This document shows positions 14,147 to 58,699 of a stretch of 64,000 bases of DNA, piece after piece. A program made the position numbers and the translations under genes. Numbering within the stretch: the stretch's first letter is position 1; each line of letters begins with the position of its first letter. The notes below the pieces were generated by a model. The model was given only the letters and a program-made list of their open reading frames with translations. It did not search any database and was not told the DNA's origin. Source of the DNA: Methylobacterium sp. (lineage in GTDB: Bacteria; Pseudomonadota; Alphaproteobacteria; Rhizobiales; Beijerinckiaceae); the NCBI RefSeq assembly GCF_019745455.1, contig NZ_JAIETD010000041.1, forward strand, positions 62,001-126,000, read 5' to 3'.

Positions 14147-14172
14147 CGTTCGGTGTGCTATGATGCCGAACG
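14147..14172. promoter_or_regulatory. inverted repeat upstream of antitoxin gene (putative autoregulatory operator)
   Basis: CGTTCGG-N12-CCGAACG perfect 7-bp arms, 11 bp before the antitoxin ATG. Confidence 0.45.
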
Positions 14173-14182
14173 AGGTGAGATC

Positions 14183-14419
14183 ATGACCGACGTTGTGGAG
14201 CTGGCCTTCGAGGCCGTCCGTCAGATGCCGCCCGCCGAGCGGGACAGCATGGCGCAGGCCATTCTCACTCTTGCCCGTCAGGACGACGGGCCGCTCGACA
14301 TCGAGCCGGAGCACCTGTCCTCCGTCCTCGAAGGGCTGGCGCAAATCGAGCGCGGCGAGTTCACCGAGGGCGACCCTGCCGAACTGGTCGCCGCCGCGTT
14401 TCGCCGCCATCGGCCTTGA
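14183..14419 (+). CDS. putative antitoxin of ParE-type TA module
   Basis: 78-aa acidic protein whose stop overlaps the toxin start; start set at ATG 14183. Confidence 0.7.
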   Translation: MTDVVELAFEAVRQMPPAERDSMAQAILTLARQDDGPLDIEPEHLSSVLEGLAQIERGEFTEGDPAELVAAAFRRHRP

Positions 14420-14745
14420 AGCTACGCCTTTCCCCGCGGGCCGAGGCCGACCTCGACAGCATCGCCGCCTACCTTGCAGCCCGCGACCCGCAGGCCTTGC
14501 AGCACGTTCAGGATCAGCTTGCTGCGGCTTTGCGGTTGCTTCTCGATCACCCGCAGGCGGGGCGCCATGTCGGTCGAGGACTGCGCCGCCTCTCCGTGCC
14601 GCGCCTCCCCTACCTGATCGTCTATCGTGTGGATGAAGCCGCCGAAGCCGTCGCCGTCGCCACCATCCGCCATACCGCCCGTCGTCTAGACCCGGCCGGC
14701 ATTCGTTGGCTGATGCTTCCACGGGGGACGGATCCCCACCCTTGA
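14416..14745 (+). CDS. RelE/ParE-family toxin
   Basis: MKLRLSPRAEADLDSIAAYLAARDP...HPQAGRHV...LRRLSVPRLPYLIVYRVD..VAVATIRHTARR. Confidence 0.88.
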   Translation: MKLRLSPRAEADLDSIAAYLAARDPQALQHVQDQLAAALRLLLDHPQAGRHVGRGLRRLSVPRLPYLIVYRVDEAAEAVAVATIRHTARRLDPAGIRWLMLPRGTDPHP

Positions 14746-16693: not shown

Positions 16694-16960
16694 ATGGCCA
16701 ACACCGTGTCGGCCAAGAAGATGACCCGCAAGATCGCGAAGCGCACCGCGATCAATCGCTCGCGCCGCAGCCGCATGCGCACTTTCGTCCGCAAGGTCGA
16801 GGAGGCCATCGCCGCCGGCGACCAGTCAAACGCCCTGACTGCCCTGCGGCAGGCCGAGCCCGAGATCATGCGGGCCGCTCAGCACGGCATCGTCCATAAG
16901 AACAACGCCTCCCGGAAGGTTTCGCGCCTCGCCGCGCGGGTCAAGGCGCTCGCCGCCTGA
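16694..16960 (+). CDS. rpsT: 30S ribosomal protein S20
   Basis: [39 protein letters not shown]. Confidence 0.97.
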
Positions 16961-16988
16961 CACCTCCCGACAGGGACTGCTTCGATGG

Positions 16989-17016
16989 AAGCCCGGCCTG
17001 ATGGCCGGGCTTTTTT
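16989..17016 (+). terminator. intrinsic terminator of rpsT
   Basis: AAGCCCGGCC-TGAT-GGCCGGGCTT followed by TTTT. Confidence 0.9.
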
Positions 17017-17060
17017 CGTTTTCGGACGACCAGTTCGTGAGCCGGTTCGCGTTAACCCTA

Positions 17061-17321
17061 GAGTCGAATCTAGGCCGTTGCGGAGTCTAGATGTGCTGTG
17101 TAGATTAATGATGTCTCGCTAAAAGCGATAAAGTTCACACTTTATTTAGCTCTGCCCGAATCGACCGAAGATATCCCAGGCAGCTCGACTCTCGCCGTCG
17201 TGTCGGAGCCCGCTCGAAGACTCGCATTGCTCCCGCGAGAGTGGGATTTGTTAGGAGAACCGTAGCTTATTGTTGATAGCCATCTTGGATCGGCAAAAGC
17301 GCGCGGTGATGGGCTTGACTC
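17061..17321. promoter_or_regulatory. cluster of seven GANTC (CcrM) motifs upstream of dnaA
   Basis: GANTC at 17061, 17066, 17083, 17158, 17187, 17219 and 17317; TTAACC at 17052. Confidence 0.6.
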
Positions 17322-17424
17322 CCCCGCGATGATCTGGGTCTCGCGATATCCTCGTGGGGCTTGACGAACGTCCAGTGTGCGTACGCGACGACGGCGGTGC
17401 CCCGCCCTCTGCGCGAGGAGAGTG

Positions 17425-18933
17425 ATGATGCAGGTCGAGGGTAGCGCGGCGGATGACGGCGAGATCGGCAGGAACGGTGCCAGTACGGCGGAATGTGCAG
17501 CCGCTTGGGTGCGGGTCAAACGCCGCCTGAGGGCCGAGCTCGGCGAGGACGTTTTCGCGAGCTGGTTCGCTCGCCTCGAACTCGACGCGGTCACCGCCGG
17601 AACGGCGCGGCTGACCGTGCCGACCCGATTCCTCAAGAGCTGGATCGAATCGCATTACCTCGACCGTGTGCTCAACACCTTCCGCAGCGAAGTCGAGAGC
17701 GTGACGCGGATCGAGGTCGGTGTCCGTGGTGCCGCCGCTCCGGTGCGCGTCGCCCCGGCGGTGCAGAAGCCGACCGCCCCTGCGAGCCCTTTGGCCCGTT
17801 TGCAGGCCTCGCCCGCGCTCCCCGCATCCCATCCCGGCGAATCGCAGGGGGCGAGTGAGGCCGAGGGTGCCGCCCGTGCCGATGCCGGCGATCTCAGCGG
17901 CGCCCCCCTCGACAACCGCCTTACTTTCTCGAGCTTCGTCGTCGGTCGCTCCAACGCCCTGGCGCATGCCGCCGCCGAGCGCGTCGCGCGCCATGACGGA
18001 GGGCCGGCCCTCTACAACCCACTCTACCTCCATGCCGGTGTGGGCCTCGGCAAGACCCACCTCCTCCACGCGATCGGCCACGTCACCCGCGAGTCCGGCA
18101 AGCGTGTGATCTACCTCACCGCCGACCGCTTCATGTACGGCTTCGTGAACGCCCTCAAGACGCAGAACGCCCTTGCCTTCAAGGAGCGCCTGCGCGCCAT
18201 CGACCTCCTCATCCTCGATGACGTCCAGTTCATCCAGGGCAAGTCGATTCAGGCTGAGTTCGGCCACACGATCAATGCCCTGATCGATGCCGGCCGCCAG
18301 ATCGTGGTGGCGTCCGACCGGCCTCCCACCGAACTCGAAGCCCTCGACGAGCGCGTGCGCTCGCGCCTCGGCGGCGGCCTCGTCGTGGAGATCGGCAGCC
18401 TCGACGAGACCCTGCGGGCCTCGATCCTCTCCGCGCGACTCGCCGCGGTGCGGCTCACGCATCCCGGCTTCGAGGTGTCGCCGACGGTCGCCGCCTACGT
18501 CGCCCGATCGATCACCGCCAACGGCCGCGACCTCGAAGGCGCGGTCAACCGGCTCCTCGCCCATGCCACCCTCACGGGCACGGCCGTGACCCTGGAAACG
18601 GCCGAGACCGCGATCCGCGACCTCGTCAAGAACCGCGAGCCGAAGCGCATCAAGATCGAGGACATCCAGAAGCTGGTGGCCTCCCGCTATAACGTCTCCC
18701 GGTCCGACATCCTGTCCGAGCGGCGCACCGCCGCCGTGGTCAAGCCGCGCCAGATCGCCATGTACCTTTCGAAGGTGCTGACCCTGCGCTCGCTCCCCGA
18801 GATCGGTCGGCGTTTCGGCGGGCGCGACCACACCACGGTGCTCCACGCCGTGCGCAAGATCGACAAGCTGATCGGTGAGGATTCGGTGTTGTCCGAGGAG
18901 GTCGAACTCCTCAAGCGCATGCTGCAGGATTGA
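17425..18933 (+). CDS. dnaA: chromosomal replication initiator DnaA
   Basis: [22 protein letters not shown] Walker [15 protein letters not shown]-terminal [20 protein letters not shown]; start assigned to ATG 17425. Confidence 0.97.
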
Positions 18934-54539: not shown

Positions 54540-57500
54540 ATGGCCCGCTTCTTCATCGACCGGCCGATCTTCGCCTGGGTCGTCGCCCTGTTCATCTGTC
54601 TCGGCGGCGTGCTCGCCATCCCGATGCTGCCCATTGCTCAGTATCCAGTGATAGCGCCGCCTTCGATCGCACTCTCGACGGCCTATCCCGGCGCATCCGT
54701 CGAGAACCTCTATACCGGCACGACGCGCCTCATCGAGGACGAACTCAACGGCGCGGCCAACATTCTCAACTTCGAGAGCGCCAGCGACGCCTTCGGAGTC
54801 ATCGAGATCACGGCGCAGTTCCGTCCCGGCACGGATTCGAGCCTCGCCGGCGTCGAAGTGCAGAACCGACTGAAGCGCATCGAGGCACGCCTTCCGGCAG
54901 AAGTCCGTCAGCAGGGAACGCTGGTGGAGGAAGCCTCCGCCGCGACACTCAACATCATCACCCTGATCTCCCCCGACCGGTCGATGGACGAGATCGCGCT
55001 CGGCGACTTCCTGATGCGGAACGTGATCAACGAGATCCGCCGCATTCCCGGCGTCGGTCGCGCGACCCTCTATTCGACCGAGCGGTCGCTGAGGATCTGG
55101 GTCGATTCCGATAAGCTGCGCGGGCTCTCCCTCAACGCATCCGACGTCTCGCAGGCGATCACCAACCAGAACGTCCAGATCGCCTCGGGCGCCGTCGGCG
55201 CGGCGCCGAGCCCGTCGAACAACCCGGTCAACTTCCCCATCATCGTCAAGGGCCAGATGACGGCGCCGGACGAGTTCGGCGCGATCGTCCTGAGGGCCAA
55301 CCCCGACGGCTCCAACGTGCGCCTGCGCGATATCGCCCGGATCGAGCTCGGCGGTGAGGACTACAAATTCACCACCCGTCTGGACGGAGGCCCTGCCGCC
55401 GGTATTTCGGTAACCCTGGCGCCGGATGGCAACGCCCTCGAGACCGCGAACGCCATCCGCGCCAAGATGGTGGAACTGTCCGAGTTCTTCCCGTCCAACG
55501 TGAAGTGGGATATTCCGTACGACATCACACCGGCCGTCAACGCCTCGATCTGGAAGGTGCTGATGACGCTGATCGAGGCGGTGGTCCTCGTCTTCGTGGT
55601 GATGTTCCTGTTCCTGCAGAACATCCGCTACACGCTGATCCCCACCATCGTCGTGCCGATCGCCCTGATGGGCACCTGCACGGTGATGCTGCTCTCCGGC
55701 TTCTCGGTGAACGTGCTGACGATGTTCGGCATGGTGCTCGCCATCGGCATCCTCGTCGACGACGCCATCGTCGTCGTCGAGAACGTCGAGCGCATCATGA
55801 ACGAGGAAGGCCTTCCCCCGAAGGAGGCTACCCGCAAGGCCATGGATCAGATCACCGGCGCGATCATCGGCATCACGCTGGTGCTGGTGGCGGTGTTCAT
55901 CCCGATGGCGTTCTTCCCGGGCTCGGTCGGCATCATCTATCGCCAGTTCTCGATCGCCATGGTGACCTCGATCGCCTTCTCGGCGCTCCTGGCCCTCACC
56001 TTGACGCCGGCCCTCTGCGCGACCCTGCTCAAGCCGGTCGAGAAGGGGCACGGTCATGCCAAGGGCGGGTTCTTCGGATGGTTCAACCGGCTCGTGGACC
56101 GTGAGACAGCCCGCTATGGGCGCGGCGTCTCGGCCTTCATCGCTCGCTCGGGCCGGGTCATGGTGGTCTACCTGATCCTGGTCGCGGGCCTCGCCTATGC
56201 CTTCGTCCGCCTTCCCGAAGGCTTCCTTCCGGTGGAGGACCAGGGCTTCTTCACCGTGGATATCCAGACGCCACCGGGATCCTCCTTCAACCGCACCGAG
56301 CAGGCCGTGAAGAAGGTCGAGGAGCACCTCCTCGCCCAACCCGGTGTCGCGAGCGTCACCATCGTCAACGGCTTCTCGTTCTCGGGACAGGGCCAGGTGA
56401 CGAGCCAAGCCTTCGTCACCCTCAAGCCCTGGGGCGAGCGCGACGCGGCCAACTCCGCGGCCAAGCTGGTGGAGGGCACCAACAAGGCGCTCTCGACCTA
56501 CAAGGATGCCATCATCCAAGCCTTGGAGCCGCCGCCGATCGACAATCTCGGCAACGCCTCCGGCTTCTCCTTCCGCCTTCAGGACCGGGGCCAGAAGGGG
56601 TACTCGGCGCTGATGGCGGCTCAGGAGCAGTTGCTCTCCCTCGCCAAGAAGAGCCCGGTGCTTCAGAAGGTCTATGTCGAGGGATTGCCGCCTGCGCCCC
56701 AGGCCGAACTCGTCATCGACCGCGAGAAGGCGGCGGCACTGGGGGTGGCCTTCGAGGAGATCAATAACACCATCCAGGTCAATCTCGGGTCGGTCTATAC
56801 CAACGACTTCCCGAACCGGGGCAAGATGCAGCGCGTCATCGTCCAGGCCGAGGATTCGCAAAGGTTGAAGGCCGCCGACCTCCTGAATTACGGCGTCCGG
56901 AACGCACAGGGCACCATGGTGCCGATGTCCTCCTTCGCCGACCTCAAATGGAGCGTCGGGCCGGCGCAGATCATCGGCTTCAACGGCTACCAGTCGGTGC
57001 GCATCACCGGCGAGCCGAAGCCCGGCTACACCTCGGGTGACGCCATCGCAGAGATGGAGCGCCTGATGGAGCAGCTGCCCAAGGGGTTCGGCTATACCTG
57101 GACCGGCCAGTCGCTGCAGGAGAAGGAGGCCGGCAGCCAGGCGACCCTGTTGCTCGCCCTCTCGATCCTCATCGTGTTCCTGTGTCTCGCCGCGCTCTAC
57201 GAGAGCTGGTCGATCCCCTTCTCGGTGCTGCTCGTCATCCCGCTCGGCGTCGTCGGCTCGGTGGCGGCGGTCTACCTGCGGGGCATGCCCAACGACGTCT
57301 ATTTCAAGATCGGGCTCATCACGATCATCGGCCTCTCGGCCAAGAACGCGATCCTGATCGTGGAATTTGCCAAAGACCTCTGGAAGCCGGGCAAGTCGCT
57401 GGTCGACGCCACGGTGGAGGCCGCGACGCTCCGCTTCCGCCCGATCGTGATGACCTCGCTCGCCTTCATCTTCGGAGTCGTGCCTCTCGCCATCGCGACG

Positions 57501-57704
57501 GGGGCGGCCTCGAAGAGCCAGCAGGCCATCGGCACCGGCGTGCTCGGCGGCATGATCTCGGCGACGGTGCTCGCCGTGATGTTCGTGCCAGTGTTCTTCG
57601 TGGTGGTGATGCGGCTATTCCGCCGGAAGGACGCGGCGGAGGGCCCGAAGACGGAGGCGGAGGACAAACCAGAGCCTTCAGCTCACCCCGCACCGGCCGA
57701 GTAG
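54540..57704 (+). CDS. RND efflux inner membrane transporter (HAE1/AcrB family)
   Basis: MARFFIDRPIFAWVVALFICLGGVLAIPMLPIAQYPVIAPPSI; GILVDDAIVVVENVERIM. Confidence 0.98.
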   Translation: MARFFIDRPIFAWVVALFICLGGVLAIPMLPIAQYPVIAPPSIALSTAYPGASVENLYTGTTRLIEDELNGAANILNFESASDAFGVIEITAQFRPGTDSSLAGVEVQNRLKRIEARLPAEVRQQGTLVEEASAATLNIITLISPDRSMDEIALGDFLMRNVINEIRRIPGVGRATLYSTERSLRIWVDSDKLRGLSLNASDVSQAITNQNVQIASGAVGAAPSPSNNPVNFPIIVKGQMTAPDEFGAIVLRANPDGSNVRLRDIARIELGGEDYKFTTRLDGGPAAGISVTLAPDGNALETANAIRAKMVELSEFFPSNVKWDIPYDITPAVNASIWKVLMTLIEAVVLVFVVMFLFLQNIRYTLIPTIVVPIALMGTCTVMLLSGFSVNVLTMFGMVLAIGILVDDAIVVVENVERIMNEEGLPPKEATRKAMDQITGAIIGITLVLVAVFIPMAFFPGSVGIIYRQFSIAMVTSIAFSALLALTLTPALCATLLKPVEKGHGHAKGGFFGWFNRLVDRETARYGRGVSAFIARSGRVMVVYLILVAGLAYAFVRLPEGFLPVEDQGFFTVDIQTPPGSSFNRTEQAVKKVEEHLLAQPGVASVTIVNGFSFSGQGQVTSQAFVTLKPWGERDAANSAAKLVEGTNKALSTYKDAIIQALEPPPIDNLGNASGFSFRLQDRGQKGYSALMAAQEQLLSLAKKSPVLQKVYVEGLPPAPQAELVIDREKAAALGVAFEEINNTIQVNLGSVYTNDFPNRGKMQRVIVQAEDSQRLKAADLLNYGVRNAQGTMVPMSSFADLKWSVGPAQIIGFNGYQSVRITGEPKPGYTSGDAIAEMERLMEQLPKGFGYTWTGQSLQEKEAGSQATLLLALSILIVFLCLAALYESWSIPFSVLLVIPLGVVGSVAAVYLRGMPNDVYFKIGLITIIGLSAKNAILIVEFAKDLWKPGKSLVDATVEAATLRFRPIVMTSLAFIFGVVPLAIATGAASKSQQAIGTGVLGGMISATVLAVMFVPVFFVVVMRLFRRKDAAEGPKTEAEDKPEPSAHPAPAE

Positions 57705-57713
57705 TAGGTATCT

Positions 57714-57817
57714 CCCTCCCCCTTGAGGGGAGGGATCGAAGGTGGCTGGGCGACCCTGGGTTCAGGCAAGCGGAACACCCCCACCTCGTCCCCACACCCA
57801 CGTCGGGCCTGCCCGAC
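57714..57817. repeat. convergent intergenic hairpins
   Basis: CCCTCCCC-CTTGA-GGGGAGGG (57714-57734) and GTCGGGC-CT-GCCCGAC (57802-57817) between convergent RND and sdhB genes. Confidence 0.5.
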
Positions 57818-57883
57818 TTGGGCACCGAACATGCCGATCTCGGGCTGGCCTGAGATCTATGGGGGAGGAGAGGCGCTACGTCC

Positions 57884-58699
57884 TCACACCTCGCGCGAGA
57901 TCATCATCTTCTTGATCTCGGCGATGGCTTTTGCCGGGTTCAGGTTCTTCGGGCAGGTATTGGCGCAGTTCATGATCGTGTGGCAGCGATACAGCCGGAA
58001 CGGGTCATGCAGGGCGTCGAGGCGCTCACCGGTATTTTCGTCGCGGCTGTCGATCAGCCAGCGATAGGCCTGCAGGAGCGCTGCCGGCCCGAGGAAGCGA
58101 TCGCCGTTCCACCAATAGCTCGGGCAGGACGTCGTGCAGCAGGCGCAGAGGATGCACTCGTAGAGCCCGTCGAGCTGTGCGCGATCCTCCGGCGTCTGCT
58201 TCCACTCGCCCTCGGGCGCCGGCGTCTCGGTCTGGAGCCAGGGCTCGATCGAGGCGTGCTGTGCGAAGAAGTTCGTCAGGTCCGGCACGAGATCCTTGAG
58301 CACCGGCATATGCGGCAATGGGTAGATCCGAACCGCACCGGTCTTCTTGCCCTTGGCGTGCCCCTTGGTGTGATCTTGGCACTCGTCAATGCCCATGGTG
58401 CAGGCGAGCGCGTTCTGGCCCTCGATGTTCATGGCGCAGGAGCCGCAGATGCCCTCGCGGCAGGAACGGCGGAAGACGAGGGTCGAGTCGACCTTGGCCT
58501 TGATCCAGAGCAGGGCGTCCAGCACCATCGGCCCGCAATCGTCTCGGTCGACCTGATAGACGTCCACCCGCGGGTTGGCGCCGTCATCCGGGTTCCAACG
58601 ATAGATCCGGAACTCCTGCAGATTGTTGGCGCCAGGCGGCCGAGGCCAGGTCTTGCCCTCGGTGAGCTGGGAGTTCTTGGGGAGAGAGAACTGGGCCAT
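57884..58699 (-). CDS. sdhB: succinate dehydrogenase iron-sulfur subunit
   Basis: [72 protein letters not shown]. Confidence 0.98.

Follow-up and report, generated by a model that had tools for sequence, protein, structure and literature searches.

The reading of CcrM methylation at the loci that initiate replication is a standing question, and most of the work devoted to it concerns Caulobacter promoters with one or two sites. The question is raised here by a Methylobacterium sp. in which the window (the whole 64-kb stretch of DNA that was analysed) contains seven GANTC sites within 261 bp (17061-17321) upstream of dnaA. The answer that we hold to be moderately probable is that through this array dnaA is controlled in a CcrM-dependent and replication-coupled manner, as in a version of the Caulobacter dnaA switch with multiple sites. 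The density of the sites, the conservation of their positions, the presence of CcrM, GcrA and CtrA, a further array at oriC and the distance between dnaA and oriC are the points brought forward in support of the CcrM reading.

Organisation of the rpsT-dnaA spacer

All seven sites are located in the 467-bp spacer between rpsT and dnaA (Table 1), in a region upstream of dnaA that is AT-rich (GC 0.51). The positions that the original prediction had assigned to the seven sites and to TTAACC were all exact. An objection to the CcrM reading is that the majority of the sites are 200-370 nt away from the dnaA ATG, possibly far from the promoter. A sigma-70 promoter scan of the spacer gave no match, neither a clear -10 element nor a start site could be assigned for the TTGAC at 17315, and a search of the dnaA leader against Rfam returned no RNA family.

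Table 1. Sequence features of the rpsT-dnaA region (window coordinates; fractions refer to the 35 aligned genomes)
Feature	Position	Strand	Basis
rpsT (30S ribosomal protein S20), gene 5' of the spacer	16694..16960	+	NCBIfam TIGR00029, Pfam PF01649
Strong intrinsic terminator of rpsT; start of a separate dnaA control region	16987..17014	+	12-pair stem and T run
TTAACC, candidate CtrA half-site-like element, about 377 nt before the dnaA start	17052..17057	+	Motif and conservation
GANTC site 1, GAGTC; not widely conserved	17061..17065	.	Alignment
GANTC site 2, GAATC; 14/35	17066..17070	.	Alignment
GANTC site 3, GAGTC; 17/35 (GAGTC 16, GACTC 1)	17083..17087	.	Alignment
Conserved element GTGTAGcTTAA, here GTGTAGATTAA; second TTAA-containing block	17098..17108	.	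Conservation
GANTC site 4, the most conserved; 30/35 (GAATC 21, GAGTC 8, GATTC 1)	17158..17162	.	Alignment
GANTC site 5, GACTC; 17/35	17187..17191	.	Alignment
GANTC site 6, GACTC; lineage-specific	17219..17223	.	Alignment
TGTTAGGAGAACCGTAGcttATTGTTGATAG block, 31 bp, core TTGTTGATAG; putative function	17249..17279	.	Conservation
TTGACTC; TTGAC invariant, possible -35 element	17315..17321	+	Conservation
GANTC site 7, GACTC in 23/35; overlaps TTGAC	17317-17321	.	Alignment
Inverted repeat (dnaA leader hairpin); compensatory changes between species	17338..17360	+	18 species
Second dnaA leader hairpin, beside the Shine-Dalgarno sequence, with compensatory changes	17384..17415	+	18 species
dnaA, 501 aa, ATG at 17428	17428..18933	+	TIGR00362 DnaA equivalog (E 7e-145); Pfam DnaA_N, Bac_DnaA, Bac_DnaA_C

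The TTAACC motif had been proposed as a CtrA half-site. It is found in 23 of 41 Methylobacterium species, with TTAACCAT in some of them, and it is a possible CtrA element rather than a demonstrated one. No full CtrA site (TTAA-N7-TTAA) with at most one mismatch was found in the dnaA spacer, whose CtrA-like content is restricted to this half-site-like motif and the TTAA at about 17105. Besides, the core TTGTTGATAG of the block at 17249-17279 occurs in every Methylobacterium examined, including the clade that lacks the array. The complement of this core reads CTATCAACAA; the other strand of the block, given also as CTATCAACA, is two mismatches from the TTATCCACA found at oriC. The block is possibly a diverged DnaA box (a site of DnaA autoregulation) or a promoter element.

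In another part of the window, between ubiB and coaBC (14153-14745), two short overlapping ORFs resemble, by their sequence, a toxin-antitoxin pair of the ParE type.

Rarity of the array and its conservation in relatives

The genomic background is a one-third sample drawn from the longer contigs (1,764,000 bases, 32.6% of this genome). GANTC occurs there at 1.96/kb, a mean of about 0.5 per 270 bp, and the single site that the original prediction had expected by chance was therefore generous. The unusual density that it had claimed is in fact exceptional for this genome and stronger than stated: an empirical count per 270 bp found at least seven sites in 10 of 1,740,866 windows of that length, all of them at the dnaA spacer (among those with GC below 0.55 the frequency is 0.0005). 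The tightest seven-site span of the sample is also the dnaA array, with 261 bp, followed by spans of 369 and then 421 bp, the latter at oriC. Places with at least five GANTC per 270 bp number twelve in 1.764 Mb, two of which lie at or beside oriC. Another of the twelve, with five GANTC (L065:6080-6461), immediately precedes a lexA-like gene.

The 64-kb window as a whole is depleted of GANTC about threefold in comparison with dinucleotide shuffles (117 observed vs 361), and such depletion is known for genomes bearing CcrM (PMC3973325). When the local AT-rich sequence was shuffled in the same way, 1.7 sites were expected in the range where the original prediction had placed the cluster, giving P = 0.0004 for a range chosen post hoc, and P = 0.02 was obtained for the whole rpsT-dnaA spacer. 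This weaker local result means that the density in a single genome is not decisive alone.

The array is not unique to the source organism; it is also conserved in other members of the genus and in the sister genus. Of 41 Methylobacterium species, 26 carry five or more GANTC per 270 bp upstream of dnaA, as do all 18 Microvirga species, whose arrays comprise 5 to 11 sites located for the most part 400-700 nt before dnaA. Arrays of at least five sites within dnaA itself or in the 1.5 kb downstream number zero in the same loci of both genera. These species counts are not P values because the species are not independent, though the controls share the same ancestry. Arrays are rarer beyond these two genera: in wider draws, they were found upstream of dnaA in 6 of 25 loci of the class and in 4 of 26 loci of the family, against 0-1 per control in each draw.

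It could be thought that the array arose by chance, or because AT-rich intergenic DNA is generally rich in GANTC; GANTC is over-represented in the intergenic DNA of Alphaproteobacteria (PMC3973325), and the shuffles of the whole spacer reach only P = 0.02. However, position and number of sites are conserved across Methylobacterium and Microvirga with no control case in the same loci, and the dnaA array is unmatched in 1.76 Mb, which makes this explanation very improbable. The comparative data indicate, from sequence, that the array is kept by selection upstream of dnaA, and they fit the multi-site methylation input to dnaA that had been suggested.

An alignment of 35 dnaA upstream regions from the same genus shows five GANTC columns that are each common to at least 10 genomes. 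The best-kept site (17158) has A, G or T as its central base. Other sites turn over between subclades, the number of sites remaining mostly steady at about 5-10. Across the dnaA upstream regions of the 41 Methylobacterium species GANTC is enriched 6.2-fold over the genome, and the next permuted pentamer 3.2-fold. These data bear on a further explanation, in which the GANTC words belong to the sites of a protein indifferent to methylation, or of a shielding protein like MucR, methylation being a by-product. The AT-rich character of the region (GC 0.51) and the several other conserved blocks of the spacer agree with it, and MucR binds and hides GANTC in other Alphaproteobacteria (PMC5172544). 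Nevertheless, what is conserved at 17158 is GANTC with a variable central base, the very specificity of CcrM, new sites arise at new positions, and only GANTC is enriched to such a degree; we thus regard a methylation-indifferent protein as an unlikely origin of the array.

The two adjacent sites described as lying back to back inside CCTAGA-GTCGAA-TCTAGG are indeed present in the spacer, but the pair occurs at this position only in this species, in Methylobacterium sp. Leaf108 (the nearest named relative) and in brachythecii. The tandem palindrome is not conserved among relatives and was therefore ruled out as the core of the element. The clade of platani, indicum and nonmethylotrophicum, as seen in a DnaA tree, has largely lost the array at dnaA. 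It lives with few or no sites there, and the array is therefore not needed in all species, which is a further objection to the CcrM reading. Related to DnaA, one 9.1-Mb genome of the same family (G193) carries three near-full-length DnaA homologues with 58-59% identity to the query, two of them on one contig and the third on another.

The chromosomal origin and the position of dnaA

Could the dnaA spacer itself be the replication origin, its GANTC sites being part of it? The spacer is rich in GANTC and in AT, adjoins dnaA and contains TTAA elements. However, no DnaA box within one mismatch was found in it, nor the hemE-ppsR (RP001) gene context. That context lies on another contig (C9, 89669-90188; locus L099:9669-10188), where the 520-bp spacer between hemE and the ppsR/RP001 homologue contains six GANTC, TTATCCACA and the full CtrA site TTAACCGGGCTTTAA. 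On the basis of its sequence and gene context, this hemE-ppsR spacer is the chromosomal oriC. Its distance from dnaA was measured in seven single-contig chromosomes of relatives and is 1.15-2.16 Mb (0.47-0.64 of the half-chromosome); therefore, the dnaA spacer is not the origin, and an origin at dnaA was rejected as a candidate, with a residual likelihood that we consider negligible.

GC skew was discarded as an origin marker, since it changes sign at several points of the contig, and also near dnaA of a closed relative. A sign change that resembled an origin lies at about 57500-58000 of the window, beside the sdh operon.

The origins of all 25 Methylobacterium genomes compared carry 4-12 GANTC in the 560-bp stretch preceding ppsR, and this includes the clade without a dnaA array. 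Most of these origins also have a CtrA site of the form TTAA-N6/7-TTAA and DnaA-like boxes. Since dnaA lies about half-way along the replichore, its spacer is expected to replicate midway through S phase.

The coexistence of arrays at dnaA and oriC in the same genomes brings to mind a sequestration mechanism like that of SeqA, in which a protein binding clusters of hemimethylated GANTC would shield both loci after replication, and the same two loci are sequestered in E. coli (PMC13337833). Both arrays would then be docking platforms of an alphaproteobacterial equivalent of SeqA that evolved independently on the CcrM mark; such a protein would keep dnaA off between mid S phase and the appearance of CcrM. 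A further argument comes from the spacing of sites by 10-11 bp in some arrays, as expected for binding on one face of the helix: in three Methylobacteriaceae arrays it gave P = 0.005, a hint of helical phasing in this family. Five arrays from other families did not show the phasing (P = 0.49), dnaA and oriC replicate at different times, and the platani clade has an oriC array with no array at dnaA. Moreover, a search of the genome with the SeqA model (PF03925) gave no match while the E. coli control was positive, and SeqA has been described as restricted to gamma-proteobacteria (PMC5172544). Taken with these objections, sequestration by a SeqA equivalent appears improbable to us.

Proposed reading of the methylation mark and comparison with known systems

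The machinery invoked in the CcrM-dependent reading favoured here is encoded in the genome, which contains CcrM, GcrA and CtrA. The CcrM ORF, on contig C2, combines N6_N4_Mtase and RAMA domains and matches positions 2-349 of the 350 of model NF050803 with 606 bits, below the NCBI cut-off of 830 of this model, which is named for the Caulobacter enzyme. GcrA was found in all 61 genomes searched, and so was RAMA, with one weak match (G015). The CtrA on contig C10 has a receiver with 94% identity to the query, and a further receiver domain resembling that of CtrA lies on contig C65 (332-706), with 89% identity.

In the mechanism proposed, all sites of the array would be fully methylated before S phase. 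When the fork reaches dnaA, about half-way along the replichore, the whole array would become hemimethylated and would remain so until CcrM is synthesised late in the cycle. Readers of the change would be RNA polymerase with its factors, GcrA being the most plausible intermediary; this sigma-70 cofactor prefers methylated GANTC, and in Caulobacter its binding depends on GANTC methylation (PMC3667746). The reading points may be the promoter-proximal site overlapping TTGAC and the upstream sites beside the CtrA-like TTAA elements. DnaA synthesis would fall, or otherwise change, after the passage of the fork and would be restored when replication ends. With arrays at both dnaA and oriC, a single CcrM mark could gate the initiator gene as well as the origin. 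The array probably ties DnaA production to the passage of the replication fork; methylation of the sites, the direction of its effect, the reader and the cooperation between sites are the parts of this explanation that we infer.

No paper on GANTC clusters under that name, nor on GANTC together with Methylobacterium extorquens, appeared in the literature searched. The closest system is the CcrM control of dnaA (and also of ctrA, ftsZ and mipZ) in Caulobacter crescentus. As there, GANTC lies in the dnaA control region and overlaps a possible -35 element, and CcrM, GcrA and CtrA are encoded. In Caulobacter, the methylation state of GANTC affects dnaA transcription, although modestly (PMC3973325, PMC2217572), and more than one site is found in 11 of the 96 cell-cycle promoters that have GANTC at most 50 bp upstream of the start (PMC4287350). 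The Methylobacterium array, in contrast, comprises seven sites in 261 bp and is conserved as an array. Caulobacter dnaA is close to the origin, whereas that of Methylobacterium is about half-way to the terminus.

GANTC excess at an initiator gene and an origin is also known from the repABC modules of alphaproteobacterial secondary replicons; in Agrobacterium, these GANTC-rich modules respond to CcrM, and methylation affects repC (PMC11514494). However, Methylobacterium presents a chromosomal system in which dnaA and oriC are separate loci and no antisense RNA is known. The combination of a dnaA array, an oriC array, a dnaA in the middle of the replichore and a clade that lacks the dnaA array alone offers a clean and testable comparative system.

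The likeness to Dam and SeqA of E. coli resides in the place of the clusters, since GATC is clustered there at oriC and at the dnaA promoter, the two loci that stay hemimethylated (PMC13337833). Motif and enzyme are different, the activity of CcrM is limited to the late part of the cycle, and the Methylobacterium genome has no SeqA homologue and keeps dnaA and oriC far apart. These observations suggest that alpha- and gamma-proteobacteria have independently placed clusters of methylation sites on the same two loci.
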